A stretch of 64,000 bases of DNA from assembly GCA_019635775.1 (NCBI GenBank), contig JAHBYU010000009.1:1-64000 (forward strand), in the 5' to 3' direction. The translations under genes were made by a program, and so were the position numbers. This DNA is from Rhizobiaceae bacterium. Its GTDB lineage: Bacteria; Pseudomonadota; Alphaproteobacteria; Rhizobiales; Rhizobiaceae. Shown here piece by piece: positions 4,920-57,970 of the stretch. The notes under the pieces were generated by a model that was given only the letters and a program-made list of their open reading frames with translations, made no database searches and was not told the origin of the DNA. Position 1 is the stretch's first letter. The number at the start of each line of letters is the position of its first letter.

Positions 4920-4933
4920 TTAATCGAGATTAA
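4920..4933. promoter_or_regulatory. FNR/FixK-type box upstream of PRPP synthase operon
   Basis: The sequence TTAATCGAGATTAA is a dyad with TTAATC/GATTAA arms that fits TTRAY-N4-RTYAA. It lies 113 bp upstream of the PRPP synthase start. Its right flank, AGTTC, recurs at other boxes of this window. Confidence 0.7.
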
Positions 4934-5038
4934 GTTCTTGCCATTGCGTGCCAACTCGGCCTCGCGTGCGAACGGCATTTCCGGTCATGCACGAAGGGAT
5001 GCATAAAGGCTCCGGCCAGCACCTTTCCGGACGCAATC

Positions 5039-5052
5039 TTGATCTGAGTTAA
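5039..5052. promoter_or_regulatory. FNR/FixK-type box between PRPP synthase and ftsH
   Basis: TTGATCTGAGTTAA fits TTRAY-N4-RTYAA. It lies 165 bp upstream of ftsH and about 230 bp upstream of the PRPP synthase start, so it could serve either gene. Its flanks (CTT before, AGTTC after) have the orientation seen at boxes of minus-strand genes. Confidence 0.65.
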
Positions 5053-5216
5053 AGTTCCGGCCTTCCCAGGCGCGCATTTTGACGACCAAGCAGGCTTCAA
5101 GTGACTTTTAGCAGAGAACCTTGTCGATCCTGATGCTCAATAGACGCGGCGATCCATAACGCGCCTGGCTGATGACATAAATCGCATTGGCCGTCGCGCG
5201 CGAGAGAAGTACGGGA

Positions 5217-7100
5217 ATGCGGCCCATGGAGAATGAGAACAAAGCGCCCGCGAAGCGGGTCTTCAAGTTCGACATCCTGTATTTTATTGCGGTCTTCTTT
5301 GCCGTTCTGCTGATCCGGGATCTGCTTGTCGGCCAAGGCCATATCAAGGTCATTCCGTACAGCGAGTTCCAGAGCCTGATCGAAAGGGACGGCGTCGCCG
5401 ACCTGGTGGTCGGACCGACGGAGATCACCGGCGCTTACAAGCCGCCTATCGAGAAGGATGCGCCCCAGCATTTCTCCACGGTTCGCGTCGATCCGCAGAT
5501 CGCCGACGTGCTAACCAAGAGCAACATTTCCTTCTCCGGCAAACCCGCGCCGGGCCTCTTCGAAAACCTGCTCTCCTGGCTGATGCCGGCTGCGATATTC
5601 GTGTTGATCTGGATATTCCTGCTGCGGCCGATGATGGCCGGACAGCATGGCGGCCTGATGAGCATCGGGCGCAGCCGGGCGAAAGTCTATGGCGAGAAGT
5701 CTGTAAAGGTGACCTTCGCCGATGTGGCGGGCGTCGATGAAGCCAAGCAGGAGCTCGCCGAAGTCGTCGGCTTCCTAAAGGACCCGGCAACCTATGGCCG
5801 GCTCGGCGCGCGCATTCCCAAGGGCCTGCTTCTCGTCGGTCCGCCCGGAACCGGCAAGACGCTTCTGGCGCGTGCCGTCGCCGGGGAATCGGGGGTTCGC
5901 TTCTTTTCGATTACCGGTTCCGAATTCGTCGAGATGTTCGTCGGCGTCGGCGCTTCGCGCGTGCGCGACCTGTTCCAGCAGGCGCGCGCGCAGGCCCCGG
6001 CCATCGTCTTCATCGACGAACTCGATGCGCTCGGTCGCGCCCGCGGCGTCGATATGCCGGGCGGTGGACATGACGAGAAGGAGCAGACGCTCAATCAGCT
6101 GCTCGCCGAGATGGATGGCTTCGACCCGAGCGTCGGCATTATCGTTCTCGCCGCGACGAACCGGCCAGAGATTCTCGATCCCGCGTTGCTGCGCGCAGGT
6201 CGCTTCGATCGCCAGGTTCTGGTCGACCGCCCCGATCGTCAGGGCCGGATCGACATACTGAACGTGCACCTGAAGAAGATCAGCGTGGCGCCCGAACTCG
6301 ACGTCGCGGCGGTCGCGGCGCTCACGCCCGGCTTCACTGGCGCCGATCTCGCCAATCTGGTCAACGAAGCCGCGCTTGTGGCCACGCGCCGCGGCGCGAG
6401 CGCCACCGTGCTCGACGATTTCACGCAGGCCGTGGAACGTATCGTCGCCGGCCTGGAGAAGAAAAGCCGGATTCTCATTCCACGCGAGCGCCAGATCGTC
6501 GCCAATCACGAGATGGGGCATGCGCTCGTCGCCATGGCGCTTCCCCAGACCGACGTGGTGCAGAAGGTCTCGATCATCCCGCGCGGCATTGCTGCGCTCG
6601 GCTACACGCTCCAGCGGCCGACCGAGGATCGCTTCCTCATGAGCCAGTCCGAATTGCAGGATCGCATGGCGGTGCTGCTTGGCGGTCGGGCCGCCGAAAG
6701 CCTGGTGTTCGACGAGATTTCGACAGGCGCGGCGGACGATCTCGTCAAGGCGACGGACATCGCACGCAACATGGTGGTCCGGTTCGGCATGTCGAAGGAG
6801 CTCGGACAGGTCGCATATGAACCGGAAACCGGCAGCTTCCTCGTCGGACAGACCCCGGTCTGGCGGCCGCGCGCCTATAGTGATGAGACGGCCGAGGCCA
6901 TCGATCACATGGTGAAAGACCTGATTGACAGCGCCTTCCAGAAGGCACGCGCGATCCTCGAGCGCAACCGATCCGTGCTCGATACCAGTGCGCGCGAGCT
7001 TCTTGCGCGCGAGACGCTCGGCCCCGACGAGCTCGCCAAGCTGACCACGGGTCTCGAGCGCGAGGCACCGCGAAAGCCAGGTCTCGCTCTGGTCGAATGA
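5217..7100 (+). CDS. ftsH: ATP-dependent zinc metalloprotease FtsH (second copy)
   Basis: Membrane-bound AAA+ protease that degrades damaged or short-lived membrane and cytosolic proteins. Two membrane segments lie at about residues 19-37 and 118-140, flanking a periplasmic domain. Then come Walker A GPPGTGKT (about 208-215), Walker [11 protein letters not shown], the second region of homology ending LLRAGRFDR, and the zinc site HEMGH (about 431-435; most FtsH proteins have HEAGH). At 628 aa it is full length. The frame is open upstream to a TTG at 5187, but the ATG at 5217 (or 5226) is more likely. It leads a plus-strand run with the HlyD/RbbA-type exporter. The accessory setting suggests a stress-specific paralogue, not the housekeeping FtsH. 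Confidence 0.93.
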
Positions 7101-7163
7101 TGCGGATCGAAAATCGCCGGATAGGCCTGCTCGACGGGCGCTCGCTGTTTAAGGGAATCTAAG

Positions 7164-8150
7164 GTGCGCAGATCATCCGTTGTAGTCGTCGCCGTGTTGG
7201 TTGGCACTGCTGTGGCCGGCGGCTATGTCTATTGGCTCGGTACGCAGAACCGGGTTCCAGCAGGCCTGGCGCGAGTGAATGGAAGGATCGAGGTCGAGCG
7301 GGTCGACATCACCAGCAAGTATGCCGGGCGACTGGCTGAAGTCCTGGTCGACGAGGGCGCGAACGTCAACAAGGGCGACGTGCTTGCCCGCCTCGATACG
7401 AGCGAGATCCAGGCCCAGTTGACGGCCGCGCGCGCCGCCGTCCATCGCAGCCATCAGAGCGTCGCCAGTGCGCAAGCGAGTGTTGCCCTGCGCGAGGCTG
7501 AACTCAATCTTGCGCGAATCGAACTCCAGCGGGTCGTCAACCTCATGCGAACGAACACTTCGACCCAGGCCGAGCTCGATCGCCGCACGGCGCAACGCGA
7601 CATCTCAAGCGCGTCTCTGCAGACCGCTAAAGCCGCGGTTGAGGACGCCAAGGCCTCGGTCGAGGTTGCCGAGGCGCAGGTCAGCCAGATCGAAGCCGCC
7701 ATTGCCGACATGACGTTGAAGGCCCCGGTATCCGGCCGCGTCGAGTACCGTCTCGCCCGAACCGGCGAGGTCGTCGGCGCCGGGGGGCGCATATTGACGG
7801 TCTTCGACCTCTCGGACGCCCATATGACGATCTATCTTCCGACGGCCTCCGCCGGTCGTGTGGCGGTGGGCTCGCAGGCCCGCCTCGTGCTGGACGGCCC
7901 AGGCGGCTACGTCTTGCCGGCGATCGTGTCGTTCGTTTCGGCCGACGCGCAGTTCACACCGAAATTCGTGGAGACGGCGAACGAGCGCGAGAAGCTGATG
8001 TATCGCGTCAAGCTGCATCTCGACCCGGCGCTGGTCACCTCCGAGCGCGGCTATGTCAAGGCGGGGATGACCGGCAACGCCTATGTTCCGGTGACCCCAG
8101 ACGCGCTTTGGCCGACCGAACTTGCGCCGAGGCTGCCCGATGGAGGCTGA
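7164..8150 (+). CDS. HlyD-family periplasmic adaptor (membrane fusion protein)
   Basis: Links an inner-membrane exporter to the periplasm or outer membrane. One N-terminal membrane anchor (residues about 5-25) is followed by a biotinyl-lipoyl half-motif VDEGANVNKGDVLARLD. A long alpha-helical hairpin (about 85-180) and the second lipoyl half with a beta-barrel (VSGRVEYRL) come next. The GTG start at 7164 is preceded by an AAGGGA ribosome site. The stop overlaps the start of the ABC ATPase gene. The order adaptor, double ATPase-permease, permease matches the yhiI-rbbA-yhhJ arrangement of enterobacteria. The substrate is unknown. Confidence 0.88.
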   Translation: MRRSSVVVVAVLVGTAVAGGYVYWLGTQNRVPAGLARVNGRIEVERVDITSKYAGRLAEVLVDEGANVNKGDVLARLDTSEIQAQLTAARAAVHRSHQSVASAQASVALREAELNLARIELQRVVNLMRTNTSTQAELDRRTAQRDISSASLQTAKAAVEDAKASVEVAEAQVSQIEAAIADMTLKAPVSGRVEYRLARTGEVVGAGGRILTVFDLSDAHMTIYLPTASAGRVAVGSQARLVLDGPGGYVLPAIVSFVSADAQFTPKFVETANEREKLMYRVKLHLDPALVTSERGYVKAGMTGNAYVPVTPDALWPTELAPRLPDGG

Positions 8151-10908
8151 GCCCGCCACAGCCGTCAGCCTGTGGGGCGTCCAGCATGCCTATGGGAAGG
8201 TGATCGCTCTTCGCAATCTGGCTCTGACCGTTCTGCCCGGGTGCAAGCTCGCCATCGTCGGCCCGGATGGGGTCGGCAAGTCGACCTTGCTCGGCTTGAT
8301 CGCGGGGGTTCGCCGCATTCAGCGCGGTTCGGTCAATGTGCTGGGCGGCGACATGGCTTCGGCGGCGCACCGCAACGAGGCCGCGCCCCGCATCGCCTAT
8401 ATGCCGCAAGGGCTCGGACGCAATCTCTATCCGACCTTGTCGGTCTACGAGAACATCGACTTTTTCGCCCGGCTCTACACCCAGCCGGACGATGGTCGGC
8501 GTCGACGGATCGACGAGCTCATGCGGGTCACGGGGCTGTTTCCCTTCGCCGAACGACCGGCGGGGAAACTCTCCGGCGGGATGAAGCAGAAGCTCGGGCT
8601 GTGCTGCGCGCTGGTTCATGATCCCGATCTCCTCATTCTGGACGAACCGACGACCGGGATCGATCCGTTGTCGCGCCGCCAGTTCTGGACGTTGATCGGA
8701 CGTATCCAGGCCGAGCGGCCGACCATGACGGTGATCGTGGCGACCGCCTACATGGAGGAGGCTGGCGCCTTCGATCGTATCGTGGCGATCGACGATGGCA
8801 CGATCATCGCTGAAGGAAGTCAGACGGACCTGCTTGCGCGCACCGGCGCCACCACTCTCGAACAGGCCTATATCGAGCTACAGCGTCCGGAACGGCGCGG
8901 GGTGCGCGCGGCGCCGTCCGTCCCACGTCTCGAACCCGACGGCGGCCCTCCAGCCATCGTGGCCGAAGGCCTGACGATGCGGTTTGGCGATTTCACCGCG
9001 GTCGACCATGTCAGCTTTCGCATCGAGCGCGGCGAGATCTTCGGCTTCCTCGGCTCCAATGGTTGCGGCAAGACGACGACGATGAAGATGCTGACCGGGC
9101 TGCTTCCGGCGACCGAAGGCCGTGCCGAGCTCCTGGGCAAGCCGGTCGATGCGCGCGACATCTCGGCGAGGACGCGGATCGGCTATGTCTCGCAATCTTT
9201 TTCGCTTTACGAAGAGCTGACCGTGCGCGGCAATCTCGAGCTGCACGGACGACTGTGCGGCATCGGCGGCAATGTGCTGCGTGAGCGGGTCGATGAGGCC
9301 TTGTCACGCTTCGAGCTCGGCAAGGTCGCCGAGACGCTGCCGGACGCCTTGCCCTTGGGCATGCGCCAGCGCCTTCAGCTGGCGGCGGCATGCCTGCACC
9401 GGCCGGACGTCCTGATCCTGGACGAGCCCACCTCGGGCGTCGATCCGGCGGCTCGCGACCGCTTCTGGAGCCTTCTGCTCGAGATGTCGCGCCGCGACGG
9501 GGTGACGATTTTCATCTCGACGCATTTCATGAACGAGGCCGAGCGCTGCGACCGCGTCTCTCTCATGCATGCGGGCCGCGTGCTGGCGGTCGGCGCGCCA
9601 CGCGAGCTCCAGGCCGCACGTAAGGCCGCAAGCCTCGAGGATGCCTTCGTCGCCTATTTGGAAGATGCGGCGGGTACGGGTGCTGGCGAGCCGTCCGTGA
9701 ATGATGAAGCGGTTGGCGTGGTCGAGCCGACCTCAGTGAGGCTGAACAACAATGCCGAGGTGGCGCAAACGCCGCGCCTTGCTTCGATGAAGCGGATCTG
9801 GACGTTTGCACGCCGGGAGGCGCTCGAGCTCAGCCGGGATCGCATCCGGCTGGCCTTCGCGCTAATCGGGCCGCTCCTGCTGATGGCGGCGTTCGGCTAC
9901 GGGATATCGTTTGATATCGAAGGTTTGCGCTACGCGGCGCTCGACCGTGACCAATCTTTGGAAAGCCGGGCGTTTCTCGACCAGTTCTCGAACTCGCGGT
10001 ACTTCGTCGAGCAGGCACGTCTGAACGACGATGTCGAGATCGACCGGCGACTGCGCGCCGGCGAGCTGAAATTCGCCATCGACGTCCCGCCCGGCTTCGG
10101 CCGCGACCTTTTGCAGGGCCACAGGCCCGAGGTCGGCTTCTGGCTCGACGGCGGCAATACCTTCCCCGCCGAGACCGCGCGCGCCTACATTCTTGACACG
10201 CTTCAGACCTATGCCGGCGTGCTGGCGCGCGCCGCCAATCGCGCCAACGGACTGCCAGCCGAGACGCTGCGGGTCGAGCCGCGCTTTCGTTACAATCAGG
10301 ATTTCCGTTCCGTCGTCGCGATCACGCCGGGATCGATCATGCTGCTGCTGATCATCTTCCCGGCGATGCTGACCGCCCTCGGCGTCGTGCGGGAGAAGGA
10401 GATGGGGTCGATCGCGAATGTCTATGCTTCGCCGGCGACGGTCGGCGAGTATCTGCTCGGAAAACAGCTCCCCTATGTTGTGATCGGCGTCCTGAGCTAT
10501 CTCAGCCTGCTGGCTTTCGCCGGTGGCGTGCTGGGCGTCGTGCCGAAGGGCTCGCTGCTGGCGCTCTCGCTCGCGGCCCTGGTCTATGTCTACGCCGCGA
10601 CAGCATTCGGGCTTCTCGTGTCCGCCTTCGTCTCGACCCAGGTCGCCGCGATATTCGGCACCGCCATTCTGACGGCGATGACCGCAGCGCATTATTCGGG
10701 CTTCCTGATCCCGGCCTCCTCGCTCGAGGGGCCGGGCCGCATCATGGGCCTGTCATTCCCGCCGCTTTGGTTCCAGACCATCAGCCTCGGCGTGTTCGCC
10801 AAAGGTCTCGACACGCCAGCGTTCGCCCGCGAGCTTCTGGTGCTGGCGGCGTTCGCGCTTGGGTTCCTGCTGCTGGCGCGGCTCTTAATCCGCAAGCAGG
10901 GGGCGTAG
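8140..10908 (+). CDS. RbbA-type fused ABC exporter: two ATPase domains plus ABC-2 permease
   Basis: 922 aa. NBD1 has Walker A GPDGVGKST (about 40-48), signature LSGGMKQK (about 144) and Walker B LLILDEPTTG. NBD2 has Walker A GSNGCGKTTT (about 305), a degenerate signature LPLGMRQR (about 404) and Walker B VLILDEPTSG. An ABC-2 permease follows from about residue 555, with a large extracytoplasmic loop after TM1. This architecture is that of RbbA/YhiH, named for ribosome association in E. coli but operonic with export components. The ATG at 8140 overlaps the hlyD stop; an upstream TTG at 8122 is less likely. Export of an unknown substrate, together with the adaptor and the second permease, is inferred. 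Confidence 0.88.
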   Translation: MEAEPATAVSLWGVQHAYGKVIALRNLALTVLPGCKLAIVGPDGVGKSTLLGLIAGVRRIQRGSVNVLGGDMASAAHRNEAAPRIAYMPQGLGRNLYPTLSVYENIDFFARLYTQPDDGRRRRIDELMRVTGLFPFAERPAGKLSGGMKQKLGLCCALVHDPDLLILDEPTTGIDPLSRRQFWTLIGRIQAERPTMTVIVATAYMEEAGAFDRIVAIDDGTIIAEGSQTDLLARTGATTLEQAYIELQRPERRGVRAAPSVPRLEPDGGPPAIVAEGLTMRFGDFTAVDHVSFRIERGEIFGFLGSNGCGKTTTMKMLTGLLPATEGRAELLGKPVDARDISARTRIGYVSQSFSLYEELTVRGNLELHGRLCGIGGNVLRERVDEALSRFELGKVAETLPDALPLGMRQRLQLAAACLHRPDVLILDEPTSGVDPAARDRFWSLLLEMSRRDGVTIFISTHFMNEAERCDRVSLMHAGRVLAVGAPRELQAARKAASLEDAFVAYLEDAAGTGAGEPSVNDEAVGVVEPTSVRLNNNAEVAQTPRLASMKRIWTFARREALELSRDRIRLAFALIGPLLLMAAFGYGISFDIEGLRYAALDRDQSLESRAFLDQFSNSRYFVEQARLNDDVEIDRRLRAGELKFAIDVPPGFGRDLLQGHRPEVGFWLDGGNTFPAETARAYILDTLQTYAGVLARAANRANGLPAETLRVEPRFRYNQDFRSVVAITPGSIMLLLIIFPAMLTALGVVREKEMGSIANVYASPATVGEYLLGKQLPYVVIGVLSYLSLLAFAGGVLGVVPKGSLLALSLAALVYVYAATAFGLLVSAFVSTQVAAIFGTAILTAMTAAHYSGFLIPASSLEGPGRIMGLSFPPLWFQTISLGVFAKGLDTPAFARELLVLAAFALGFLLLARLLIRKQGA

Positions 10909-10910
10909 CG

Positions 10911-12038
10911 ATGCGGCGCTGGATCGAAAACGCCTTCCGTCTCGGCGTCAAGGAATTCGCCAGTCTGTCGCGCGACGTCGTGATGGTGGTGCTCATCGGC
11001 TACGTCTTCACCTTCGCTGTCTATTCCGAAGCGACAGCGATGCGAACCGACGTCAACGACGCCAAGGTGGCTGTCATCGACGGCGATCGCTCGACCCTCT
11101 CGGGCCGGATCAAGGACGCGCTCCGGCCTCCCTATTTTCGGCCGGCGGTCGAAATCGACCGCTCGAGCCTCGACGGCTTGATGGACAAGGGCGCCTTCAC
11201 GTTCGTTCTCGACATTCCGCATGGTCTGGAAGCCGATTTTCTCGCCGGCCGCAACCCGGCCATTCAGGTCAATGTCGATGCAACCAGCATCTCACAGGCC
11301 GGCGTCGGCACCGCCTATATCCAGGAGATCGTCGCGCAGGAGACAACACGCTTCCTCAAGCAGGCCTCCGTCGAGACGCTCGCCCCGGTCAACGCGGTGA
11401 TCCGCGCGATGTTCAACCCGAACCTCGAAGCCATCAGCTTCACGGCAAGCATGGGCGTCATCAACAACGTCACCATCCTTGCCATCATTCTGGTCGGCGC
11501 CGCGGTGATGCGGGAACGGGAGCATGGCACGATCGAGCATCTTCTGGTTATGCCGGTGAGCGCCAGCGAGATCATCGCGGGCAAGATCTGGGCAAACGGG
11601 CTGGTCATATTGCTGGCCGCGGCGTTTTCCCTTCACGTCGTGGTCGAGGTTGTCCTGCGCACACAGATCGTCGGTTCGATCGAGCTTTTTCTTGCCGGAA
11701 CGGCCATTTATCTGTTCGCCGTGACGTCGCTCGGCATCCTGCTCGCCACGGTCGCAAACTCCATGCCGCAATTTGCGCTGCTCTCCATCCCGGTCTTCGT
11801 GCTGATGTTCCTGTTGTCCGGCTCCTTCACACCGTTCGAGAGCATGCCCCGAGCCCTGCAGCTGATTATGGACCTTTCGCCGTCCACGCATTTCGTGCGT
11901 TTCGCACAAGCTGTACTCTACCGCGGCGCCGGTCTCGATGTGGTCTGGCGCGATCTTCTGATCATGGCGGGCCTTGGCGCGGGCTTCGTCGCGATTGCCC
12001 TTTATCGTTTCAAAGCCATGCTCGCCCGCCAATCGTGA
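10911..12038 (+). CDS. ABC-2 type transporter permease (YhhJ-like)
   Basis: 376 aa inner-membrane protein. One N-terminal membrane segment (VVMVVLIGYVFTFAVYSE) is followed by a periplasmic domain of about 150 aa. A cluster of five membrane segments from about residue 180 holds the ABC-2 block MREREHGTIEHLLVMPVS. The ATG at 10911 begins two bases after the stop of the RbbA-type gene, with a GGGGGCG-like ribosome site inside that gene's end. Together with the permease half of the previous protein it should form the membrane pore. Confidence 0.88.
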   Translation: MRRWIENAFRLGVKEFASLSRDVVMVVLIGYVFTFAVYSEATAMRTDVNDAKVAVIDGDRSTLSGRIKDALRPPYFRPAVEIDRSSLDGLMDKGAFTFVLDIPHGLEADFLAGRNPAIQVNVDATSISQAGVGTAYIQEIVAQETTRFLKQASVETLAPVNAVIRAMFNPNLEAISFTASMGVINNVTILAIILVGAAVMREREHGTIEHLLVMPVSASEIIAGKIWANGLVILLAAAFSLHVVVEVVLRTQIVGSIELFLAGTAIYLFAVTSLGILLATVANSMPQFALLSIPVFVLMFLLSGSFTPFESMPRALQLIMDLSPSTHFVRFAQAVLYRGAGLDVVWRDLLIMAGLGAGFVAIALYRFKAMLARQS

Positions 12039-13613: not shown

Positions 13614-15731
13614 TCATGAAGCGGCCTTCATGCCTTGGCGCCTGTAAAAGCGCAGGAACTGCGCATTGATGGCAACGATAATGGTGCTGGCTGACATGAA
13701 CACCGCGGCTATGGCCGGCGTCATCAGAAAGCCCGTGCCGAACGTGATGCCGGCGGCCATCGGGATGGCTATGGTATTGTAGCCGGTTGCCCAGATGAGG
13801 TTCTGCACCATCTTTCGGTAGGTCGCACGTGACAGACCGAGGATTGCCGCGACATCGCGCGGATCGCTCTTGACGAGCACGACATCCGCCGACTCCACGG
13901 CCACATCCGTGCCGGCTCCAATGGCCACGCCGAGGTCCGCCTGGACGAGCGCCGGCGCATCGTTGACGCCGTCACCGACCATTGCCACCGAGAGGCCCCG
14001 AGCCTGAAGCTCCTTGATCTTGTCGGACTTCTGATCGGGCAGCACCTCCGCGAAGTACTCGGCGATCCCCAGTTCCTTCGACACGCTCTCGGCTACGCCC
14101 TTTGCGTCGCCCGTCAACATGACCGATTTGATGCCGAGCTGGGTGAGTTCCGCGATGGCGTCTTTCGATTCCGGTCGGACGATGTCGGCGAGCGCGAAGA
14201 GCGCACGCGCTTCGCCGTTGCGCACCAGCGCCACCACCGTTTTGCCCTGCGCTTCGAGCTGCTTCAGCCTTTCATGTGTGATGGGTTTGCCCTGTCGTGC
14301 AAGATGGCCGGGGCTGACGATGCGAATGTCCTGCCCGTCGACCTTCGCGACGATGCCTTCACCCGTGATATTGCTCACCTCGCTGGCTTTCTGGATGTTG
14401 ATATTCCTGCGTTTCGCTTCAGCCACGATGCCGTGAGCGATCGGGTGCTCGGACTGACTCTCAGCTGCCGCGGCAAAGGCAAGCTCGGCGTTCTCGTCGC
14501 CACCCGCGAGCAGCACGACGTCGCTGACGCCGAAGCGCCCCTCGGTCAGTGTGCCGGTCTTGTCCAAAACGACTGCCTGAAGATTGCGGGCACGTTCGAA
14601 CGCCGCCCGGTCACGGATCAGAAGACCATTGCTGGCGCTCAGCGATGTGCTGACGGCGACCACCAGCGGCACGGCAAGCCCAAGGGCATGCGGGCAAGCC
14701 ACGACCATCACGGTGACCATGCGTTCCAGTGCGAACTCAAGCGGCGCGCCAAGCCAAAGCCACCAGACGAACAGCGTTCCGAAGCCGACGACCAGGGCGA
14801 TGTAGGTCAGCCAGGCGGCCGCCCTGTTGGCGATATCCTGTGTCCGCGAACGCGTTGCCTGGGCTTTCTTCACGAGATCGATGACCTGAGCGAGATAGGT
14901 CGCATCACCTGTCTTCGTCACTTTGATGGTCACGGCGTTGGCGCCGTTGATCGCACCGCCAATCGCCGTTGCACCGACCGTCTTGGTGACGGGACGCGAT
15001 TCGCCCGTCAGCATCGCCTCGTTGAAGCCGGACGAGCCCTCGACGATTTCGCCGTCCACCGGAACCTTGGCGCCCGGGCGGACGATGACGCGATCACCGG
15101 GCTTGAGATCGGAGATCGGTACCTCGTGCATCTTGCCGTCGTCGTCGATGCGGGTCGCGCTATCGGGCAAGAGGCGAACGAGCTCTTCCAGGGCGCGCGA
15201 CGCGCCCATCACGGAACGCATTTCGATCCAGTGACCGAGCAGCATGATGGCAATGAGGGTGACGAGCTCCCAGTAGAACGCTTCGCCCGGGAAACCGAAC
15301 GTGACAGCGGCGGAAAAAAAGTACGCAGCCGAGATCGCCAGCGCGATGAGTGTCATCATGCCGGGCTGCCCCTTGCGCAGTTCGGAGAAGAAGCCGGTCA
15401 GAAAGGGCCAGCCACCATAGAAGTAGGCGATGGTCGACAATGCGAACAGGACCCATCCGTCGCCTGGGAAGGAGAGCACGTCCGAGAGCCCGAGCCAGTC
15501 TCTTATCATCGGAGAGAGCAGTAGCACCGGAGGGGTAAGCACGAGGGTCACCCAAAACCGGCGGCGAAAGTCCGCGACCATGGCGCCGTGGTCGTGGCCG
15601 GCGTGATCCGAATGGCTGGACCCTGCCGCAGCAACGATGCTGGAAGCGCCTTGCCCGGCTTCCTGCGCTGCTTCGCCGGATGCATGGTGGTTGTGATTGC
15701 GGTGATCGTGATGGGAGTGCGGTGAACTCAT
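13614..15731 (-). CDS. copB: CopB-type P1B copper-translocating ATPase
   Basis: 705 aa heavy-metal export ATPase. The N-terminus is not an HMA domain but a His-rich stretch ([12 protein letters not shown] and later [10 protein letters not shown]). The membrane metal site is CPH (ACPHALGLA, about residue 344), the hallmark of the CopB/P1B-3 group, which moves copper or silver ions. TGES, the phosphorylation site DKTGTLTEG (about 387) and [10 protein letters not shown] are all present. The ATG at 15731 has GAGGAA just upstream. An FNR-type box lies about 130 bp upstream, so it may be induced when oxygen falls. It sits between the MFS gene and the arc operon, away from the CueR cluster at 32-38 kb. 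Confidence 0.92.
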
Positions 15732-15861: not shown

Positions 15862-15875
15862 TTAATCCAGATCAA
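15862..15875. promoter_or_regulatory. FNR/FixK-type box upstream of copB
   Basis: TTAATCCAGATCAA fits TTRAY-N4-RTYAA. It lies 131 bp upstream of the copB start, in the gap between arcC and copB, so copB is its only plausible target. The AGTTC flank is shared with other boxes. Confidence 0.7.
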
Positions 15876-17842: not shown

Positions 17843-17851
17843 TCTTTCTCC

Positions 17852-19078: not shown

Positions 19079-19090
19079 CCTGGTTCTCCT

Positions 19091-24173: not shown

Positions 24174-24187
24174 TTAACGTGGGTTGA
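24174..24187. promoter_or_regulatory. Weak FNR-type box upstream of cfa
   Basis: On the minus strand this reads TCAACCCACGTTAA, one mismatch (second base) from TTRAY-N4-RTYAA. It is followed by AG, as at the other minus-strand boxes. It lies 65 bp upstream of cfa. Confidence 0.4.
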
Positions 24188-24903: not shown

Positions 24904-24924
24904 GGCGCGCTCCTAGATGGAATT

Positions 24925-25322: not shown

Positions 25323-25336
25323 TTGACGTGAGTTAA
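25323..25336. promoter_or_regulatory. FNR-type box upstream of DUF2933/ICMT pair
   Basis: TTGACGTGAGTTAA fits TTRAY-N4-RTYAA. It lies 123 bp upstream of the DUF2933 start and 20 bp from the left end of the IS3 element, which left it intact. Confidence 0.6.
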
Positions 25337-27196: not shown

Positions 27197-27210
27197 TTAA
27201 TCTCGATCAA
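27197..27210. promoter_or_regulatory. FNR-type box upstream of the NifX-like gene
   Basis: TTAATCTCGATCAA fits TTRAY-N4-RTYAA. It ends 67 bp before the NifX-like start on the minus strand. Confidence 0.65.
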
Positions 27211-33440: not shown

Positions 33441-33462
33441 TCACACACTCTCCGGTCGGTTC

Positions 33463-45925: not shown

Positions 45926-47196
45926 CAGCCGATCTCCGACGCTTCCGGTTTGAGCCGGGCCAGCATGTCCTCGCTACCCTCCGTCAGCAACTGGTCGACC
46001 AGGCCTTCGAATGCGGCTTCGTCATCGCCGCTGAAACCGCGTGCTTCAGGTGGCAAATCATCGCGAAGTTCCTTCACAAGTTCACGCACGGCCTCGCGAA
46101 CACCATGCTGATGAATGATGTCACTGCGCATCAGCTCGCCGAGTTCCAAGATCGGGTCGGCGGGAGCACCTCCAACGGGAGTGCTGACGGGCGCCGTGGT
46201 CGCGATCTCGATCTTCTCGATCCAGGTCTTGCCGAGCCCTTCGGCGCGCTGCTCGGTCTCCGCCAGCAGCAGATCGCCATCACGGCGTAGCTGCCATGAC
46301 AGAGGCGTAGCACCCGTCAACCGAAGGCGGCCGACAAGATGGGCCGAGCGTGTCCGGTCGCGGGCGACACCTATGCTCTGCTCAATGAGTTCGGCCGCCT
46401 CGCGCCAGGTTGCGGCGGATGACAGATCGACCGGGATCCGTTCGAACTGAGCAATGCTCGTCGCGCGTTCTTCGATGGTGAGACTGCGATCGTCATTGAC
46501 CGTGACGAGGGTGACGGACTTTTCGCCGGCTTCGTTGATATCGCGGCCTTGTGGCATGCCCGGCATGATTACCATCCGGTCGCCGGAATGTTGGGCACGA
46601 ACATGGACATGCCCTAGGGCCCAGTAATCGAAGCCCCAACCATGAAGGTCTGACGCCTTGCAAGGCGCATAGAGATCGTGGCCGGGCGCGCCGGCGAGAC
46701 TCGTATGCATAATGCCGATATTGATCGCGTCCGGGGTAGGGTGGTGATATTTCTCGAGGAGGCTTTCCGGTGCTTGCGGTTTTGCAAAGCTCAAGCCGTG
46801 AACTGAAATACTGAGGTTCCCTTTAGTGAAATTGATTGCCTCGGCGCGCCCACCAAATCTCGTGACCAAAGGTGGCAGGATCAGCTCCTGAGTGATCCTC
46901 GACATGGCATCGTGATTGCCGCGAATGATGAACGTTGCAATGCCGGCTTCGTGAAGCCGCTGCATCTGGCTTGCCAGAAAGCGGGCAGTTTTCATCGACG
47001 TCTGATCGCCGTCGTAGAGATCGCCTGCGATAATCAGTGCATCTACCTGCTCGTCGACACAGAGATCGACTATCGCGATCAGCGCCTGGCGCGTCGCATC
47101 GCCAATCAGCTCGGCGAGATCACCATTGCGCATCGCCAGTGAGCGCAATGGGGAATCCAGGTGAAGGTCGGCCGTGTGAACAAATCGAAATGCCAT
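45925..47196 (-). CDS. YhaO-like DNA repair metallophosphoesterase (SbcD/Mre11-type)
   Basis: 423 aa from ATG 47196 (MAFRFVHTADLHLDSPL). Metallophosphoesterase motifs: ADLHLDSPL, IAGDLYDGD, FIIRGNHDAMS, IMHTSL and ALGHVHVRAQ. Its normal partner is the YhaN ATPase, here broken, so it would act alone or not at all. The C-terminal third is YhaO-specific. A longer frame to 47235 is less likely. Confidence 0.88.
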   Translation of the reverse strand: MAFRFVHTADLHLDSPLRSLAMRNGDLAELIGDATRQALIAIVDLCVDEQVDALIIAGDLYDGDQTSMKTARFLASQMQRLHEAGIATFIIRGNHDAMSRITQELILPPLVTRFGGRAEAINFTKGNLSISVHGLSFAKPQAPESLLEKYHHPTPDAINIGIMHTSLAGAPGHDLYAPCKASDLHGWGFDYWALGHVHVRAQHSGDRMVIMPGMPQGRDINEAGEKSVTLVTVNDDRSLTIEERATSIAQFERIPVDLSSAATWREAAELIEQSIGVARDRTRSAHLVGRLRLTGATPLSWQLRRDGDLLLAETEQRAEGLGKTWIEKIEIATTAPVSTPVGGAPADPILELGELMRSDIIHQHGVREAVRELVKELRDDLPPEARGFSGDDEAAFEGLVDQLLTEGSEDMLARLKPEASEIG

Positions 47197-47464
47197 ACAA
47201 TGATGTTTGTCCGATTTCAGGGAGATATTGAACAAGAGTCTATCGTACTGTCATCGACAGCGCACAGAATACTCGTCCACGATACGCGGCGTCGGTGCAT
47301 CCGCCTCTCTGGTGACGTCGGCTTGATGCTGCTGTTCGCATTGGACGCCTTGGTCCACACCATCAGTTCCATGATCTCGGTCCATCTGCTCACGATACTT
47401 CAGGCGCGCGAGATAGCGCTTGTCGCTGCCGTGGCGCTCGGCGCGATCGTCAGTGTTCGGCTGG

Positions 47465-48481
47465 CTACCGCCCTCTATGGCCGCTGCCGGGTTGCATGAT
47501 CCGAAAATAGGCAGCGAACAGCGCGGTTCTGTCGGCGGCAGGCGGCGGGCGCTTCCGCCGCCGCGAACCCTGGTGCGCGTCCAGGAAATCCGCAAAGCGC
47601 GAGATCAGCGCCTCATGGCCGCCTGCGGCCACGATCATCCAGCGCCGGTATGCGCCGGCGGCGTCCATGTTGTTCAGAAGCCAGTCAGGAGGTTTTGCTG
47701 CGAGCGCCTCGAAGCAACGAATGCGCGCGGCGGTCGACAGATTCGTGAGCGTCCTCCCCGAGCGGACTTCGGCGGCGACCGGCATGCTCAGCACGCGCGA
47801 GACCGCGTCATTGGTTTTCGCCGGAGCCCTGGCCGCCTCCACCCTGCATATATCCACGATCGCGCGTTCCAGCCGACGTGCGGCCGCCTTCACTGAGGCC
47901 TTCGGAACAGCGCGCAGGTCGAATCGGCACCACGCGCAGAAATGCTGCGGGACCAGCTCGCCCTGATCGAAGGCCGCGACGCCGGCGTGGCAGGCCGGGC
48001 ATCGATCTCGGAGCCCGCAGCCATGCGCGAAGCATGACACGCGCGATGCCAGCCGCCACGGCCGCCGAAAATACGGCGCATCGTCCGCTGCAAGGCATTC
48101 GGGGCAATACTGCATCCACGTCGAACGGTTCCGGTGCGCACTGTCGCGCAGCGGCAGCAGGAGCGGGGCCATGGCGCCGCCGCTCATCGTCATCGCCGAG
48201 ATGTCGTCGGGCGGTAGACCTGTCTGATGACAGAGCAACGTAGCGACCGTGTGCGGTAGGCGAAGGTCGAGGCGCGGCGACCACATCCTCCCGCCGAGGC
48301 CGAGGACGCCGGCGAACGACCGCGGCGCGATGCCGTTTGCGAGCGCAAGACGGTGAAGCCAGCTCGACAGCAGCTCGCCCGGAAGCGGGTCGATGGCAAC
48401 CGGCCAGCGGTCTCGCGCGACATCGCCATATCGCTCGCGTATCTCGATCGCGAAGCCCGCGCGGCTCGCGTCACCCCTCAC
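47465..48481 (-). CDS. tniQ: TniQ-family transposition targeting protein
   Basis: 338 aa. The TniQ domain opens PLPGELLSSWLHRLALANGI. Zinc-knuckle pairs follow: YCPECLAADDAPYFRRPWRL, then CFAHGCGLRDRCPAC and HFCAWC. In Tn5053/Tn7-like systems TniQ links transposase to target. The start overlaps the tniB end (ATGA-like, 4 bp). Last gene of the tniA-tniB-tniQ module. Confidence 0.88.
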   Translation of the reverse strand: MRGDASRAGFAIEIRERYGDVARDRWPVAIDPLPGELLSSWLHRLALANGIAPRSFAGVLGLGGRMWSPRLDLRLPHTVATLLCHQTGLPPDDISAMTMSGGAMAPLLLPLRDSAHRNRSTWMQYCPECLAADDAPYFRRPWRLASRVSCFAHGCGLRDRCPACHAGVAAFDQGELVPQHFCAWCRFDLRAVPKASVKAAARRLERAIVDICRVEAARAPAKTNDAVSRVLSMPVAAEVRSGRTLTNLSTAARIRCFEALAAKPPDWLLNNMDAAGAYRRWMIVAAGGHEALISRFADFLDAHQGSRRRKRPPPAADRTALFAAYFRIMQPGSGHRGR

Positions 48482-49353
48482 AACAGGTTGTCTCTCACTC
48501 GCGCCCGGCGGCGCTTCGTGACGGGGACGTAGCGCAGCGCCTCGATGCCCGATTTCGTGATCCGCTCTTCACCGGACCTCGCCGCGGCTGCGGCCGCCGC
48601 AGATACGATCGCCACGATCTCGCCGATCAGTCCCTCGGAGAGCTGAAAGATGGTGCGCGCCAGGGGTTCATCCGAGAGATTTGACGCGCGGGCGAGCGGC
48701 AAGGCGCTTTCAAGGCTGTCGAGCAGCGCCAGGAACTCCTCGCAATACTGCCAGCGCGGCACCGCGTGCAGGTCGAACCGGGTCGCCATTTCCGCGGTCT
48801 GGTTGACGATGTCGTACACTGCCACCTCGCCGATCAGAACCGGCGAGATATCGAACTGGCGGCCCATCCTCCGAAGGAAGGCAAGCACAGCCTCGACATC
48901 GCGCGCCCGGCCGCGCAGAGCATTGTGGAACTCATCGAAGATCAGGATCCTGGGCTTCAGCTTGTCGAGCAGATGATCGATCTGTTCTGCTTTGCGGCCG
49001 ACATCCCGACTGCTGCCCGTCGGCGCACGCAATGCCTGCAGGATGCTTCCGTAGAAATGGGAGAGACCTGCGCCCTCGCGCGTCTGCACCACCCACACCC
49101 GCTGCTGCTCAGCCGTTCTCAGATGGCCAACGGCGAACCGTTCGGCGATCATCGTCTTGCCGTTGGCGTAGGGGCCGACGAGCATCAGGCCCCGGGTTCG
49201 CAATGATGGCGGCCGCGACAGAAGCTCGGCAAGACGTGCATGCGCCGTGACCGCCACCTGATGTCCGATCCACCGCGGCGCCTGTAAGTAGGAGATCCGC
49301 TCTTCCTTGCTGTGGTCGAGGTGCGGCCGGACATGATCAAGAAGATGGTCTGC
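48478..49353 (-). CDS. tniB: TniB-type AAA ATPase of a Tn7/Tn5053-like transposon
   Basis: About 292 aa from a TTG at 49353 that directly follows the tniA stop; the start is uncertain because no ATG is near. Walker A VGPYANGKTMIAERFA and Walker B ILIFDEFHNAL are intact, as is the sensor region SPVLIGEVAVYD. It regulates TniA and target choice. Confidence 0.85.
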   Translation of the reverse strand, partial: ADHLLDHVRPHLDHSKEERISYLQAPRWIGHQVAVTAHARLAELLSRPPSLRTRGLMLVGPYANGKTMIAERFAVGHLRTAEQQRVWVVQTREGAGLSHFYGSILQALRAPTGSSRDVGRKAEQIDHLLDKLKPRILIFDEFHNALRGRARDVEAVLAFLRRMGRQFDISPVLIGEVAVYDIVNQTAEMATRFDLHAVPRWQYCEEFLALLDSLESALPLARASNLSDEPLARTIFQLSEGLIGEIVAIVSAAAAAAARSGEERITKSGIEALRYVPVTKRRRARVRDNLL

Positions 49354-49357
49354 CAAA

Positions 49358-51011
49358 TCACCAATCCTCAACAGGCAGACGGCGCTTCGGACGGACGGGA
49401 TGATCGGCAGGCGCCGGCGTTGCCGGCCGCATCGCGTCGTAGGGCTTGGGGGCGTCTGCCGCGTGAGCTTTGCGCACGGCATTGCGCAGCTCGGCCTTCG
49501 ACGGCTTCGATCCGCCTGCGATCTCCGCGATCCGGCGGCGAAGCGTCACCTTCTCGACGTCCGTGCGCGCGTTCGTGGTGCGTCGCTGCAGCCGGTCGGC
49601 CTCGTGTTCCCACGACGTCATCGGAGCAAGCATACCGTCCCTCCGCTCCACCGATCGAAACTCCCTGGTTTCGGGATCGCGGACGTAGATGTGGCTGATA
49701 TCGCGTGGATCGTACCGAACATCGAGCTTGCCCAGCCGATCTCGCTGCGGAACAAGCTCGCCCAGCCATGGTGAGTAATAGTCGAGCGCGAACATGCTGA
49801 CGCCCTGCGGAGTGATGCGCCGCTCCGTTCCGGGCATGAATGCCAGCAGGACCCGCATGGGGTCATCATCGAAGCGTGCAAGATCGTGCGCGTGCCGGTC
49901 CCATTCCGATGCCGGCACCTTCAGGGTCCTCGTGTTCTCGTGAATGTTGTGGTCGATCACAGCGAGTGCGACGCATCGCTCGAGATCGGCGAAGCTGAGG
50001 CGCGCCCGCCGCTCCGCGGGATATTGGTCACGATCCGCCACGGATCGGCCGGTCGTGCCGGGCTGGGTTGCCAGAACCGAATTGAGCTTTCCGAGCAGCC
50101 TTTCGACCACGCCGCCTTTGGTGGACGCGGCCGCGATCCCGGTAGCGGATACGGATGCCGTAGTCCTCGCAGCCGCGCTGGAAGGCATTGCCCTTGAACT
50201 CCTTGGCGGAGTCAGTGACCAGCAACCGAGGCCGACCGAACATCGGCCAACCATGCTCAATGCCGCGCGCGGCCAACCATCCCTCCTTCGGACACATCGC
50301 CTGCGCCAGGCACAGTGCGACCGACAGCGCCGACGGCTTTTCGAGCGTGAGGCAGAAGCCGAGAATGCAGCGCGTCGCCACGTCGGTGACGATCGTCAGG
50401 TATGCCCGGCCGACGAACGTTCCGCCGCCCTCGACGACCTCGACGAAGTTGATGTCTGTCGGCGTGTGATCGATCTGGCAGACTTCCAGCGCCTGCGCCG
50501 CGTGAATGTATCCGGGCCGCGCCTTGAGCCGATGAAGATGCTTCGGGTTCGCGGACCGCTTCTTCGCGATTTCCTCAGGGCCAAACAGTGCGGGTATTCG
50601 GCGGGCGATAGTGACATAGGACGGAGAACATAGGCCGGCCTCCTCGCAACGAGCGCGGATCTCGGCCACGACCGGAGCAAGGGGCGGAGCCTCCAGCGCC
50701 AGCCACTGCTCTCGCAGCGTCGTCGCGATGATCTCCTCGATGTCGAGCTGAAGTCGCTTCTTCCGGGTCCTGTTACCGCTGGGCAAGAGCGAGGCCACGG
50801 TCCGTTCGCCGCGGTAGCGTGCCAGCAGATTGTAGACCTGTCGGGTCGAGAGACATAGCTCGGCCGCCGCGCGCGCGATCGCGGATCCCCGCGGACTCGA
50901 CCCGTCCAGAATCCGGTCCAGCTCGCGAGCGACCCGTCGCGCCGCCAACCATGCTTCATCGGAATGCGCCGGCGCCAGCGCTGCAATTCGGCTTTGCAAT
51001 CGGTAGGTCAA
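49358..51011 (-). pseudogene. tniA: TniA-type DDE transposase, frameshifted
   Basis: Upstream frame: HTH region STRQVYNLLARYRGERTVAS, then core aspartates in VCQIDHTPTD and LLVTDSAKEF. It breaks after CEDYGIRIRYRD. The downstream frame resumes with GGVVERLLGKLNSVL (the catalytic Glu) and a Mu-type C-terminal domain ending RRLPVEDW. The break maps to about 50115-50125, where one extra base in a CCAAAGG context would explain it. The first frame starts with a TTG at 51011. A sequencing error or rare programmed shift cannot be excluded. Confidence 0.82.
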
Positions 51012-52819: not shown

Positions 52820-53458
52820 ATGTCCGCGGCTCAAGCCCTTACATTGTCCGAGGCGGGCTACGTCTTGAATCGCGCCCCCGCATTGCTCAACAAGGCGGTG
52901 GACACCGGCGTTATCCGGGCACGCCAGCGGCGCGTTGGGAGTGCCGTACAACGCCTGCTCGGTCCCGCTGAGATGCGCTTCCTGCTCGTTGCGGAACGGT
53001 TGGACAAGGACCTCACGCCCAAGGGTCGCCGGCGCCTCTACGATGCGATCAGGCAGCTCGACGTCGATGCCCACCGGGTCTCGCTGGGAGAAATCGTGCT
53101 CGATCTTGGGAAGGTCGATCGCGATCTCGAAGGTCGACTCGAACGGCTCGAGGCGTTGCGTGGATGGGTCGAGCCTGCAGCCGACGGAACCGACCCCGTC
53201 GTCAAGGGCACTAGAATCCCTGTCTATATGGTAGCGGCACTGGCGCGAAAGCAGTCGGTTTCCGAGATCGGAGAGGATTTTCCGTCGCTTACCCACGAGC
53301 AGATCGAGGGTGCAATCGAATATGCGAAAGCATACCCCAAGCGCGGCCGGCCCTATCCGACGACAAGCTTAAAGCGCGCCCTTGCCGATCTGGCAGACCT
53401 TGGCGCTTTCGACGAGAGTCCCGACGAAACGACCGCCTCTCCCCGCGAGATTCCGTGA
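52820..53458 (+). CDS. DUF433-domain antitoxin
   Basis: 212 aa. The N-terminal HTH-like part (LTLSEAGYVLNRAPALLNKA) is followed by the DUF433 domain DPVVKGTRIPVYMVAALARK ... EIGEDFPSLTHEQIEGAIEY. It likely binds its own promoter and masks the PIN toxin encoded next, whose GTG start overlaps its stop by 4 bp. Confidence 0.82.
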   Translation: MSAAQALTLSEAGYVLNRAPALLNKAVDTGVIRARQRRVGSAVQRLLGPAEMRFLLVAERLDKDLTPKGRRRLYDAIRQLDVDAHRVSLGEIVLDLGKVDRDLEGRLERLEALRGWVEPAADGTDPVVKGTRIPVYMVAALARKQSVSEIGEDFPSLTHEQIEGAIEYAKAYPKRGRPYPTTSLKRALADLADLGAFDESPDETTASPREIP

Positions 53459-53886
53459 ACGGCTATCTCCTCGACGAGAATGTGCTGCGCGAGCTCAGGC
53501 CGCGTGGCAACGTCAACGTTCGAAAATGGCTGGCGTCGGTCGATGACTCCGATCTGCGCTTAAGCGTGGTGACCCTGTTCGAGAAGCGCCGCGGCGCCGA
53601 GATGCTGAAGCGTCGCGACCCGGAGCGTGCGACCGCGCTGCTTAAGGCCATTGCCAATGTTGAGAGGGCATATGCGGATCGGATCATGCCCGTCGACGCT
53701 GCGATTGTAGCGGAGTGGACGCGGATGATAGGCTCGAAGAACAAGGATCGGTGGGACCTCGCATTGGCGGCAACGGCGCGAGTCCATGACCTCATACTGG
53801 TAACGCGCAATACCAGGGATTTTGCGGGCCGTGGCGTGCGGCTGCTCGATCCCTTCCGAGATCCGCCGCTCGCATCTGAAGCGTGA
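53455..53886 (+). CDS. PIN-domain toxin, FitB/VapC-like RNase
   Basis: 143 aa. The acidic metal site of PIN RNases is visible in YLLDENVLRELR (Asp7), LFEKRRGAEML (Glu), WTRMIGSKNKDRWDLALAAT (Asp) and LVTRNTRDFAGRGV. Translation is coupled to the DUF433 gene (GTGA overlap). Probably cleaves an RNA when free of antitoxin. Confidence 0.85.
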   Translation: MNGYLLDENVLRELRPRGNVNVRKWLASVDDSDLRLSVVTLFEKRRGAEMLKRRDPERATALLKAIANVERAYADRIMPVDAAIVAEWTRMIGSKNKDRWDLALAATARVHDLILVTRNTRDFAGRGVRLLDPFRDPPLASEA

Positions 53887-56122: not shown

Positions 56123-57435
56123 TGCTGGCGATCCTGAAGAACCGCACCTATCGGCACCTCTTTCTCGCCCAGGTCATCGCGCTGGTCGGAACGGGTCTCG
56201 CCACGGTCGCGCTCGGATTGCTGGCGTTCGAGTTGGCGGGCGAAAATGCCGGTGCCGTGCTGGGAACGGCGCTCGCCATCAAGATGATTGCCTACGTGAC
56301 GGTCGCGCCGATCGCATCGGTTTTCGCCGAACGCATGCCGCGCCGCGCCATGCTGGTTGCGCTCGATCTAGTCCGCGCCGGCGTCGCGGTGCTTCTACCC
56401 TTCGTCACCGAGATCTGGCAGGTCTATGTCCTTATCCTCGTCCTTCAATCGGCTTCGGCCGCCTTCACGCCGACCTTCCAGGCGACGATCCCCGACATCT
56501 TGCCCGATGAGAAAGAATACACGCGCGCGCTGTCGCTCTCGCGGCTGGCCTACGATCTGGAGAGCGTCGTCAGTCCGATGCTGGCCGCGGCATTGCTCGC
56601 CTTCATTTCCTTCCACAATTTGTTCGCCGGCACTGTGATAGGTTTCCTGATCTCGGCGGCGCTGGTGGTGTCTGTCGCGCTGCCGACCCCAAGGCCGGCG
56701 AAGTCGCGCGGCATCTACGACCGCACGACACGCGGCATGCGCATCTATCTGGCGACACCGCGGCTGCGCGGCCTGCTCGCAATCAACCTCGCGGTCGCCA
56801 GCGCTGGCGCGCTGGTGATCGTCAACACCGTGATCTACGTGCAGGCCGCCTTCGGTCTCGACAACCAGGCGACGGCATTGGCGCTCGCGGCCTTCGGCGG
56901 CGGCTCGATGGTTGCGGCGTTCGCACTGCCCAAGCTGTTAGAAGCCATTGCGGACCGCACCGTGATGCTGGCGGGCGCGACGCTTCTGACCGCCGGAACG
57001 CTCACGGCGGCGATGCTGCCCGGCTACGGCTGGCTGCTGCCGCTCTGGTTCGTGCTCGGCTTCGGCTATTCGACGGCGCAGACGCCCGCCGGCCGGTTGC
57101 TCCGGCGCTCTGCCAATCCCGAAGACCGCCCTGCGCTTTTTGCCGCGCAATTCGCGTTGTCGCACGCATGCTGGCTGATCGCCTATCCGCTCGCCGGTTG
57201 GGCGGGCACCACCGTCGGGCTTCCGGTAACGGCGATCGTTCTCGCGGCACTTTCTGCCGTTGCGATCGCCATCGCTGTTGTGATCTGGCCAGCCGACGAC
57301 CCGGAGGTCGTCGAACATAGTCACGCCGATCTGCTGCCCGACCATCCGCACCTTGCGGAGACTGGGCACCAGTATCGTCATGCCCATGCCTACGTGATCG
57401 ACGACATGCATGCGGCGTGGCCGCGCAAGCGCTGA
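56122..57435 (+). CDS. MFS metal/drug exporter with His-rich C-terminus
   Basis: 437 aa, twelve membrane segments. The start overlaps the csoR stop (TGATG). The cytosolic C-terminus is His-rich (HSHADLLPDHPHLAETGHQY, then RHAHAYVIDDMHAAW), like NreB-type nickel exporters. Metal efflux is inferred from this tail and from the metal repressor in front. Confidence 0.85.
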   Translation: MLAILKNRTYRHLFLAQVIALVGTGLATVALGLLAFELAGENAGAVLGTALAIKMIAYVTVAPIASVFAERMPRRAMLVALDLVRAGVAVLLPFVTEIWQVYVLILVLQSASAAFTPTFQATIPDILPDEKEYTRALSLSRLAYDLESVVSPMLAAALLAFISFHNLFAGTVIGFLISAALVVSVALPTPRPAKSRGIYDRTTRGMRIYLATPRLRGLLAINLAVASAGALVIVNTVIYVQAAFGLDNQATALALAAFGGGSMVAAFALPKLLEAIADRTVMLAGATLLTAGTLTAAMLPGYGWLLPLWFVLGFGYSTAQTPAGRLLRRSANPEDRPALFAAQFALSHACWLIAYPLAGWAGTTVGLPVTAIVLAALSAVAIAIAVVIWPADDPEVVEHSHADLLPDHPHLAETGHQYRHAHAYVIDDMHAAWPRKR

Positions 57436-57881
57436 CAGAAATCGTGGAAGATCTGCTCCCGCTGATCGGGCTGTTCGCCGTTGCTTTCGTCGCTGCCACC
57501 GTCCTCCCGGCCCAATCAGAGGCCGCGCTTGTCGGACTTCTGGTCCTAGGCAAGCAATCCCCGGATCTGCTTGTGATCGTAGCGACGGTCGGCAACGTGC
57601 TGGGCTCGGTAACCAACTGGCTGCTCGGCCGCTTGGTCGAATACTATCGCGAACAACGCTGGTTCCCGGTCAGCGAGAAAGCGCTCGAACGTGCGAGGGG
57701 CTGGTACCGGCGATGGGGCCGCTGGAGCCTACTGCTCTCCTGGGCGCCGATCGGCGGCGACGCTGTGACCGTCGCTGCCGGCGTGCTGCGAGAGCCGTTC
57801 TGGAGCTTCCTGCTGCTCGTGACCATTGCAAAGGCCGGACGCTACATCGTGCTCGCGCTGCTGACGATGGGTTTGCTCTGA
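57417..57881 (+). CDS. YqaA-family (DedA/SNARE-associated) membrane protein
   Basis: 154 aa with three to four membrane segments and the core VGNVLGSVTNWLLGRLVEYY. The GTG start overlaps the MFS stop by 19 bp, so it is the third gene of the csoR operon. The family is linked to lipid scramblase-like DedA proteins; function unproven. A fragmentary near-copy lies at 40694. Confidence 0.85.
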   Translation: MAAQALTEIVEDLLPLIGLFAVAFVAATVLPAQSEAALVGLLVLGKQSPDLLVIVATVGNVLGSVTNWLLGRLVEYYREQRWFPVSEKALERARGWYRRWGRWSLLLSWAPIGGDAVTVAAGVLREPFWSFLLLVTIAKAGRYIVLALLTMGLL

Positions 57882-57956
57882 TGTGGGGACTCTATCAGGG
57901 TTCGCCATCCAGCGGGAAATCTACGGAATGCATCAACGAATTTCCATGCAAGAGCA

Positions 57957-57970
57957 TCGATCAAGATCAA
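57957..57970. promoter_or_regulatory. FNR-type box with one mismatch upstream of 58047 gene
   Basis: TCGATCAAGATCAA has one mismatch (second base) to TTGAT-N4-ATCAA. It lies 77 bp upstream of the gene at 58047. Confidence 0.5.

Follow-up and report, generated by a model that had tools for sequence, protein, structure and literature searches.

The first 64,000 nucleotides of contig JAHBYU010000009.1 from a Rhizobiaceae bacterium (hereafter the window, C36:1-64000; G, L and C label genomes, loci or stretches, and contigs) contain a series of FNR-like boxes, TTRAY-N4-RTYAA, and raise the question of which regulator reads them. A preliminary description of the window had assigned them to an FNR/FixK-type low-oxygen regulon. 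We favor a different reading, to which we give a probability of about 0.6: the boxes would be the operators of a plasmid-borne regulon governed by a Crp/Fnr-family protein with an altered recognition helix, encoded at 28072-28857, to which a signal would be relayed from chromosomal FNR. Four observations underlie this reading: the sites themselves, their conservation, the enrichment of one specific base, and the co-occurrence of the sites with a clade of such regulators.

Boxes in the window

The window contains eight exact matches to TTRAY-N4-RTYAA, at the very positions first reported and nowhere else, whereas dinucleotide shuffles predict 0.18 and none of 100 shuffles reached eight. The estimate of about one match per 65 kb at equal base use, given in the preliminary description, is arithmetically right. 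Within the whole genome (4.95 Mb in 36 contigs), there are 33 exact matches, and the probability of finding at least eight of them in the window at the density of the remaining genome is 2.5e-9; the reversed pattern occurs eight times genome-wide. As had been claimed, the exact sites avoid coding DNA: all eight are intergenic, though coding DNA makes up about 85% of the window according to the gene model made in this analysis. Elsewhere in the genome, a similar gene model puts 15 of the 25 sites in intergenic and 10 in coding DNA. Permuted half-site patterns also gave 5-7 matches in the window, which may overlap the same boxes. We rejected chance and base composition as the source of the boxes on the basis of the shuffles, the genome density and the single-mismatch scan described below. 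The boxes retained are as follows:

4920-4933, minus strand: double-TTAA box, upstream of the genes for phosphoribosyl pyrophosphate (PRPP) synthase, phosphoketolase and a metallo-beta-lactamase (MBL) protein; like arrangement in L052 and L053
5039-5052, plus strand: TTRAY box, exact match, upstream of the ftsH-hlyD-ABC genes
15862-15875, minus strand: TTRAY box, exact match, upstream of the copB-type P-ATPase gene
20707-20720, no strand assigned: TTRAY box between arcD (minus) and the DUF305 gene (plus), exact match with alignment support
24174-24187, minus strand: one-mismatch box upstream of cfa, with comparative support
25323-25336, minus strand: TTRAY box, exact match, upstream of the DUF2933-ICMT genes
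27197-27210, minus strand: TTRAY box of the divergent 117-amino-acid gene, conserved in the eight-island alignment
27300-27313, plus strand: canonical FNR box TTGATCTGGATCAA, the only one in the window, upstream of the genes for a small Cys protein and the regulator; conserved block in eight islands
29817-29830, minus strand: TTRAY box, exact match, upstream of the extracytoplasmic function (ECF) sigma factor gene

The exact boxes are confined to 4.9-29.8 kb, with none between 30 and 64 kb, and the regulon extends over approximately 1-30 kb, so that its description as covering most of the window was overstated. Four one-mismatch sites are present, two of them intergenic (24174 and 57957), and both had been proposed as additional boxes. 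The first holds: a one-mismatch counterpart lies 64-66 bp upstream of cfa in L132, L133 and G326, an exact box lies 69 bp upstream of cfa in L058, and the counterpart in G398 has two mismatches. The second was dropped, as the comparison of islands gave no conserved counterpart.

Conservation in relatives, suggested in the preliminary description as a check, was borne out. In an alignment of the divergent promoter from eight islands (54% mean identity), the boxes at 27197 and 27300 both stand out as conserved blocks, and the arcD box (20707) does so in a five-island alignment. Because the boxes recur at homologous promoters of diverged islands, a single regulon across them appears well supported; this part of the original proposal stands.

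The boxes do not have the sequence expected of TTGAT-N4-ATCAA-type FNR/FixK operators. Seven of the eight exact sites in the window have a TTAA half, versus one of the 25 elsewhere in the genome (a site that is coding by gene model), and the only canonical TTGA-N4-TCAA site among the eight is the one at the regulator. The genome's sole RepC match is on C36 (198.6 kb), so the window is probably carried by a repABC-type plasmid.

The island regulator

The regulator does not figure in the first account of the window. Its entry reads:

28072-28857, plus strand: Crp/Fnr-family regulator with Pfam HTH_Crp_2 and cNMP_binding domains; start uncertain, frame open from 27844

Both Pfam matches (cNMP_binding, 4.2e-12; HTH_Crp_2, 1.4e-17) place the protein in the Crp/Fnr superfamily. 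Its scores fall short of the NCBIfam thresholds of the FixK, FnrL and Fnr models (92.9 bits versus a cut-off of 300 for the Caulobacter FixK model), and its recognition helix, LTFVHVNR, lacks the E..SR signature of FNR: FVHVNR aligns with LETVSR of FixK2 (4i2o) and VETISR of FNR, which puts Val at the position of the helix Glu. FNR/FixK control as such, the other part of the original proposal, was set aside as the main reading in view of the island regulator, its VHVNR instead of ETVSR, and the TTAA halves that track its clade (see below).

The FNR cluster motif C-X2-C-X5..9-C with a fourth Cys is absent from the regulator and from the longer open frame; after the GTG start, the protein contains a single Cys, at residue 150. 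FixK proteins are FNR-like, have no N-terminal cysteine cluster and are controlled at the level of their own transcription; the island regulator has no cluster cysteines and a canonical box at its promoter, and may be controlled in a comparable way. The nearest relatives of the regulator likewise lack the FNR cysteines. By contrast, four copies of the clade (the second copy of G364, G228, G224 and G098_C3b; L174, L175, L177 and L182-L183) combine the altered helix with C-X2-C-X7-C and a Cys in the fourth-ligand segment, and in L057 and G334 a related motif remains at the N terminus but the fourth-ligand Cys does not; the start codons of clade copies are uncertain. Since the full cysteine set is kept in four copies, part of it in two and none in the window lineage, oxygen sensing and altered specificity seem to be separable within the clade. 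The regulator tree does not fix the branch order, and we therefore claim no number of Fe-S cysteine losses.

The third half-site base and the helix residue

Ten island stretches (262 kb) were scanned for single mismatches to TTGAY-N4-RTCAA. Replacement of G by A at position 3 was found 41 times for 0.5 expected (40 after correction for one site counted twice where stretches overlap), whereas the other 13 mismatch classes gave 0-4 sites each for 0.2-3.0 expected: A at position 3 is the sole enriched single-base departure. Control stretches gave one such site; they were mostly chosen for holding exact sites, and their exact count (10) is a selection effect.

We propose that recognition of the third half-site base (the G of TTGAT), for which the helix Glu is responsible in FNR, is altered by the Val in its place, so that A would be accepted there and the change at position 3 would be due to Val. 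The regulator would then bind target boxes of the form TTRAY-N4-RTYAA, mostly with one TTGA and one TTAA half. Glu-181 mutants of CRP were reportedly made by Ebright. Residue 181 has been linked to the half-site base, with GTAAC-N4-GTTAC found where Glu-181 is Pro, in a study that also cites mutagenesis of the CRP Glu-181 kind (PMC1274295, relevant passages).

Sites with one TTGA and one TTAA half are in excess (51/66 versus 32.8 expected, P 7e-6), as would be the case if hybrid boxes were read by heterodimers, with chromosomal FNR on the TTGA half and the island regulator on the TTAA half; heterodimers of Fnr1 and Fnr3 with hybrid sites are proposed for Herbaspirillum in the text consulted of PMC5934665. 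However, the same excess could arise if canonical boxes were simply avoided where the DNA is GC-rich, double-TTAA boxes do occur (10/66), and, as judged by eye, the order of the half-sites relative to the gene varies between islands for copB and DUF2933. We regard heterodimers as highly improbable.

Box type and the regulator clade

A plasmid of Pseudorhizobium flavum contains 14.4 kb matching the window at 97.6%, and on plasmids of P. flavum, Ancylobacter, R. rosettiformans, Ciceribacter, Rhizobium X9 and A. tumefaciens, orthologous regulators (66-94% identity) are surrounded by many genes that the window also has. Among the matches listed, with at most six candidates scored per genome, the clade is present in 8 of 397 genomes of the order, including this one, with 12 copies of at least 217 bits and the next match at 124 bits. 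In G031 (L178-L181), three clade copies coexist and the box types differ between them. In G400 (C75, L191), the clade regulator is broken (frames split, stop) and two TTAA-type boxes persist nearby.

Of the TTRAY-N4-RTTAA places, those near the regulator are 7/8 here, 12/14 in G326, 5/6 in G334, 8/15 in G364, 14/16 in G031, 4/14 in G098 and none in G228, as found by a per-genome scan that left out G224 and in which distinct places were counted by hand. Four clade-free genomes have 0-3 such places each. At PRPP-synthase loci, 18 of 20 sites are TTAA-type in five clade genomes, versus 3 of 37 in 18 clade-free genomes (P 7e-10). Finally, over all 80 loci examined, the starts of island-gene homologues were projected from tblastn matches (E 1e-8 or better, some weak). 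Within 350 bp of these starts, all 14 sites are TTAA-type where the clade is present and all 12 are canonical where it is not, the latter coming from 11 loci in genomes screened as clade-free. This split indicates that homologous genes change box type with the regulator. A Paracoccus island without a clade regulator in the 48 kb examined has a single site, which is canonical.

These data bear on the possibility that the chromosomal Fe-S FNR encoded on C31 itself binds the boxes as it would any FNR operator, TTAA halves being tolerated variants and the island regulator playing a minor part. The C31 protein has cluster cysteines and the ETVSR helix, and in Dinoroseobacter, FnrL-dependent activation needs a TTAAC-N4-GTCAA site (PMC5398030, in part), so FnrL may read hybrid boxes directly. 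Yet all but one of the 25 sites elsewhere in the genome are canonical, and the TTAA type follows the clade regulator on homologous genes (14/14 versus 12/12). We therefore consider direct FNR control unlikely.

A possible relay from chromosomal FNR

Three other clear Crp/Fnr proteins are encoded in the genome, on C31 (C-X2-C-X7-C, helix LTIETVSR), C7 (STLHTVSR) and C1 (SAVHVNR); the FnrL/FnrN and Dnr labels that we presume for the chromosomal proteins follow from motifs, HTH_Crp_2 being the sole family model run. Canonical chromosomal boxes precede cydA and the gene of the C31 FNR-type protein itself.

The site next to the regulator is likewise canonical in 17 of 21 stretches (22 were examined, one being siteless), versus 8 of 103 other sites; after removal of redundancy, the figures are 11/15 versus 5/66 (P 4e-7). 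The underlying table was assembled by hand, with the proximal site assigned by eye; it omits G098_C3b (siteless), G400_C75 (broken regulator frame) and a further clade copy at G400:C22:3446-4090, and the second copy of G364 is not counted apart.

Given that the proximal site is mostly canonical, that the boxes are conserved, and that canonical chromosomal boxes precede cydA and the FNR-type gene, we propose the following relay. The Fe-S FNR encoded on the chromosome (C31) would respond to falling oxygen by activating, through the canonical box, the operon that comprises the regulator gene and that of the small Cys protein, so that FNR would drive the regulator; the latter would in turn activate the copper, arginine deiminase, PRPP/phosphoketolase, membrane-lipid and ECF sigma genes. 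Oxygen would thus be the signal. Low-oxygen control is plausible because of the canonical FNR box at the regulator, the arginine deiminase genes and the microoxic induction of similar genes in Bradyrhizobium, where 0.5% oxygen induces genes annotated in a similar way (MBL, PRPP synthase, thymidine phosphorylase and phosphoketolase), none of them among the direct FixK2 targets listed in the part of the source concerned (PMC6515984).

The regulator could control the boxes and respond to another cue, such as copper, redox state, nitric oxide or a ligand, with the canonical box serving autoregulation. Copper genes are numerous in the window and in the related islands, the regulator lacks Fe-S cysteines, and a Cys-rich protein that looks secreted by eye adjoins it in many islands. 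Nonetheless, the box at the regulator is a canonical TTGA-N4-TCAA, the same type as before the chromosomal FNR-type gene and cydA, and elsewhere canonical FNR boxes are found at homologous genes; a cue other than oxygen appears quite unlikely to us.

Several observations weigh against control by the island regulator under an FNR relay. The proximal site is TTAA-type in 4 of the 21 stretches (L057, L093, G031_C7b and G031_C1), so the relay is not universal, and a canonical box could also serve autoregulation rather than FNR. G228 and G224 have clade regulators with Ile/Val at the Glu position and only canonical sites nearby, G228 showing no clustering of TTRAY-N4-RTTAA near its regulator, and the second G098 copy (G098_C3b) has no site in 39 kb. 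Conversely, one TTAA-type site is present without the clade in each of L063, L107 and L110, and the AT-rich L118 and L121, which the clade screening did not cover, have two and one, respectively. Finally, the related islands are not fully independent, which also applies to the box statistics.

Comparison with known systems

Precedents exist for the cascade as well as for the base-residue rule. According to the portions compared of PMC7888657, FixK and FnrN of rhizobia occur as plasmid copies and have targets with 14-bp inverted repeats, as in the island; in the FixLJ or hFixL-FxkR-FixK relay, FixK has no N-terminal cysteine cluster, like the island regulator, and is in turn induced by low oxygen, as the regulator may be. 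FixK and FnrN share the canonical anaerobox TTGAT-N4-ATCAA, from which the island differs by its TTRAY targets; it also differs by its VHVNR helix and the FNR box at the regulator promoter (K-box/FixJ sites were outside the comparison). The FnrL-Dnr cascade of Dinoroseobacter and the ANR/DNR pair of Pseudomonas also have an Fe-S FNR that induces further Crp/Fnr regulators; the boxes of Pseudomonas Anr and Dnr are described as indistinguishable, whereas those of the island targets differ at position 3 (PMC5398030, same portions). As for HcpR2, loss of Glu-181 there accompanies A at the third half-site position, as we read GTAAC versus TTGAC, with Pro in place of the Val/Ile of the island clade and with a different motif and regulon (PMC1274295).

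The lxa locus of Burkholderia cenocepacia similarly clusters hypoxia genes, including one for an MBL superfamily protein; it is rich in universal stress proteins, a potential oxygen sensor, BCAM0049, is encoded outside it, and the descriptions, insofar as compared, mention no private operator variant (PMC6127331, PMC9104464). Universal stress proteins are absent from the 50 of 62 window gene models scanned, and the R. rosettiformans island has one such annotation.

A bolder possibility, which we consider rather doubtful, is that of a travelling low-oxygen programme with its own operator code: a plasmid regulator with a re-specified helix would be plugged into the conserved oxygen sensor of the host by way of just one canonical box, its targets being on hybrid boxes that are poor sites for host FNR by itself and that FNR-regulator heterodimers may read, so that both sensor and plasmid would be needed.

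On the favored reading itself, a low-oxygen programme of energy, membrane and copper genes could move as one package. The system offers a natural test of specificity change in a transcription-factor family (one helix residue, one operator base, homologous targets with and without the switch, many genomes), and suggests a way in which mobile copper/energy islands could shield their regulon from the host and yet still listen to its oxygen sensor. In the open-licence papers searched, we found no description of the island regulon or of a cascade combined with a base-residue change on a mobile island.

Genes of the island and neighbouring segments

The island genes are the following:

1-1344, minus strand: MBL/beta-CASP/RMMBL hydrolase, running past the window edge
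1341-3728, minus strand: phosphoketolase
3776-4807, minus strand: ribose-phosphate pyrophosphokinase (PRPP synthase)
5226-12038, plus strand: ftsH, hlyD, ABC ATPase/permease and ABC permease genes
13614-15581, minus strand: copper/heavy-metal P-type ATPase (copB)
15927-20527, minus strand: arcD-arcA-OTC-arcC arginine deiminase genes
20868-21335, plus strand: DUF305 protein
22835-24109, minus strand: cyclopropane fatty acid synthase (cfa)
24247-25200, minus strand: ICMT-type methyltransferase and DUF2933 protein
26790-27143, minus strand: 117-amino-acid protein, divergent from the regulator operon, weakly NifX-like; occurs in most mapped stretches
27408-27773, plus strand: small Cys-rich protein, preceded by the canonical box and followed by the regulator
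29097-29753, minus strand: ECF sigma factor, SigZ-like but under the NCBIfam cut-off

Arginine deiminase is an anaerobic source of ATP, and copper is more toxic in its reduced form; the island is likely to be a survival package for low oxygen combined with copper stress. The 117-amino-acid gene does have an upstream box, as reported; its NifX-like label rests on a sub-threshold Pfam match (E 0.025). The small Cys-rich protein matches no Pfam family, looks secreted by eye and is 30-89% identical across many islands; it is possibly a sensor partner of the regulator.

An IS3-type transposase gene pair (25388-26601) separates the DUF2933 box (25323) from the 117-amino-acid gene, and the P. flavum gene table (L132), which is incomplete by design, shows this interval without any gene. 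A second copper block at 31627-36509 (DUF411, DUF305, a glutaredoxin-MauE fusion, a MerR/CueR-like protein and an HMA P-type ATPase) has no exact TTRAY box. An Rfam scan of the window gave no match at gathering thresholds. Beside the island, a mobile segment (41092-50999) comprises a Tn3 transposase gene, an AAA_27/metallophosphatase pair and TniQ, TniB and integrase-core genes, and a DUF433/PIN gene pair at 52820-53886 is likely to be a toxin-antitoxin module.

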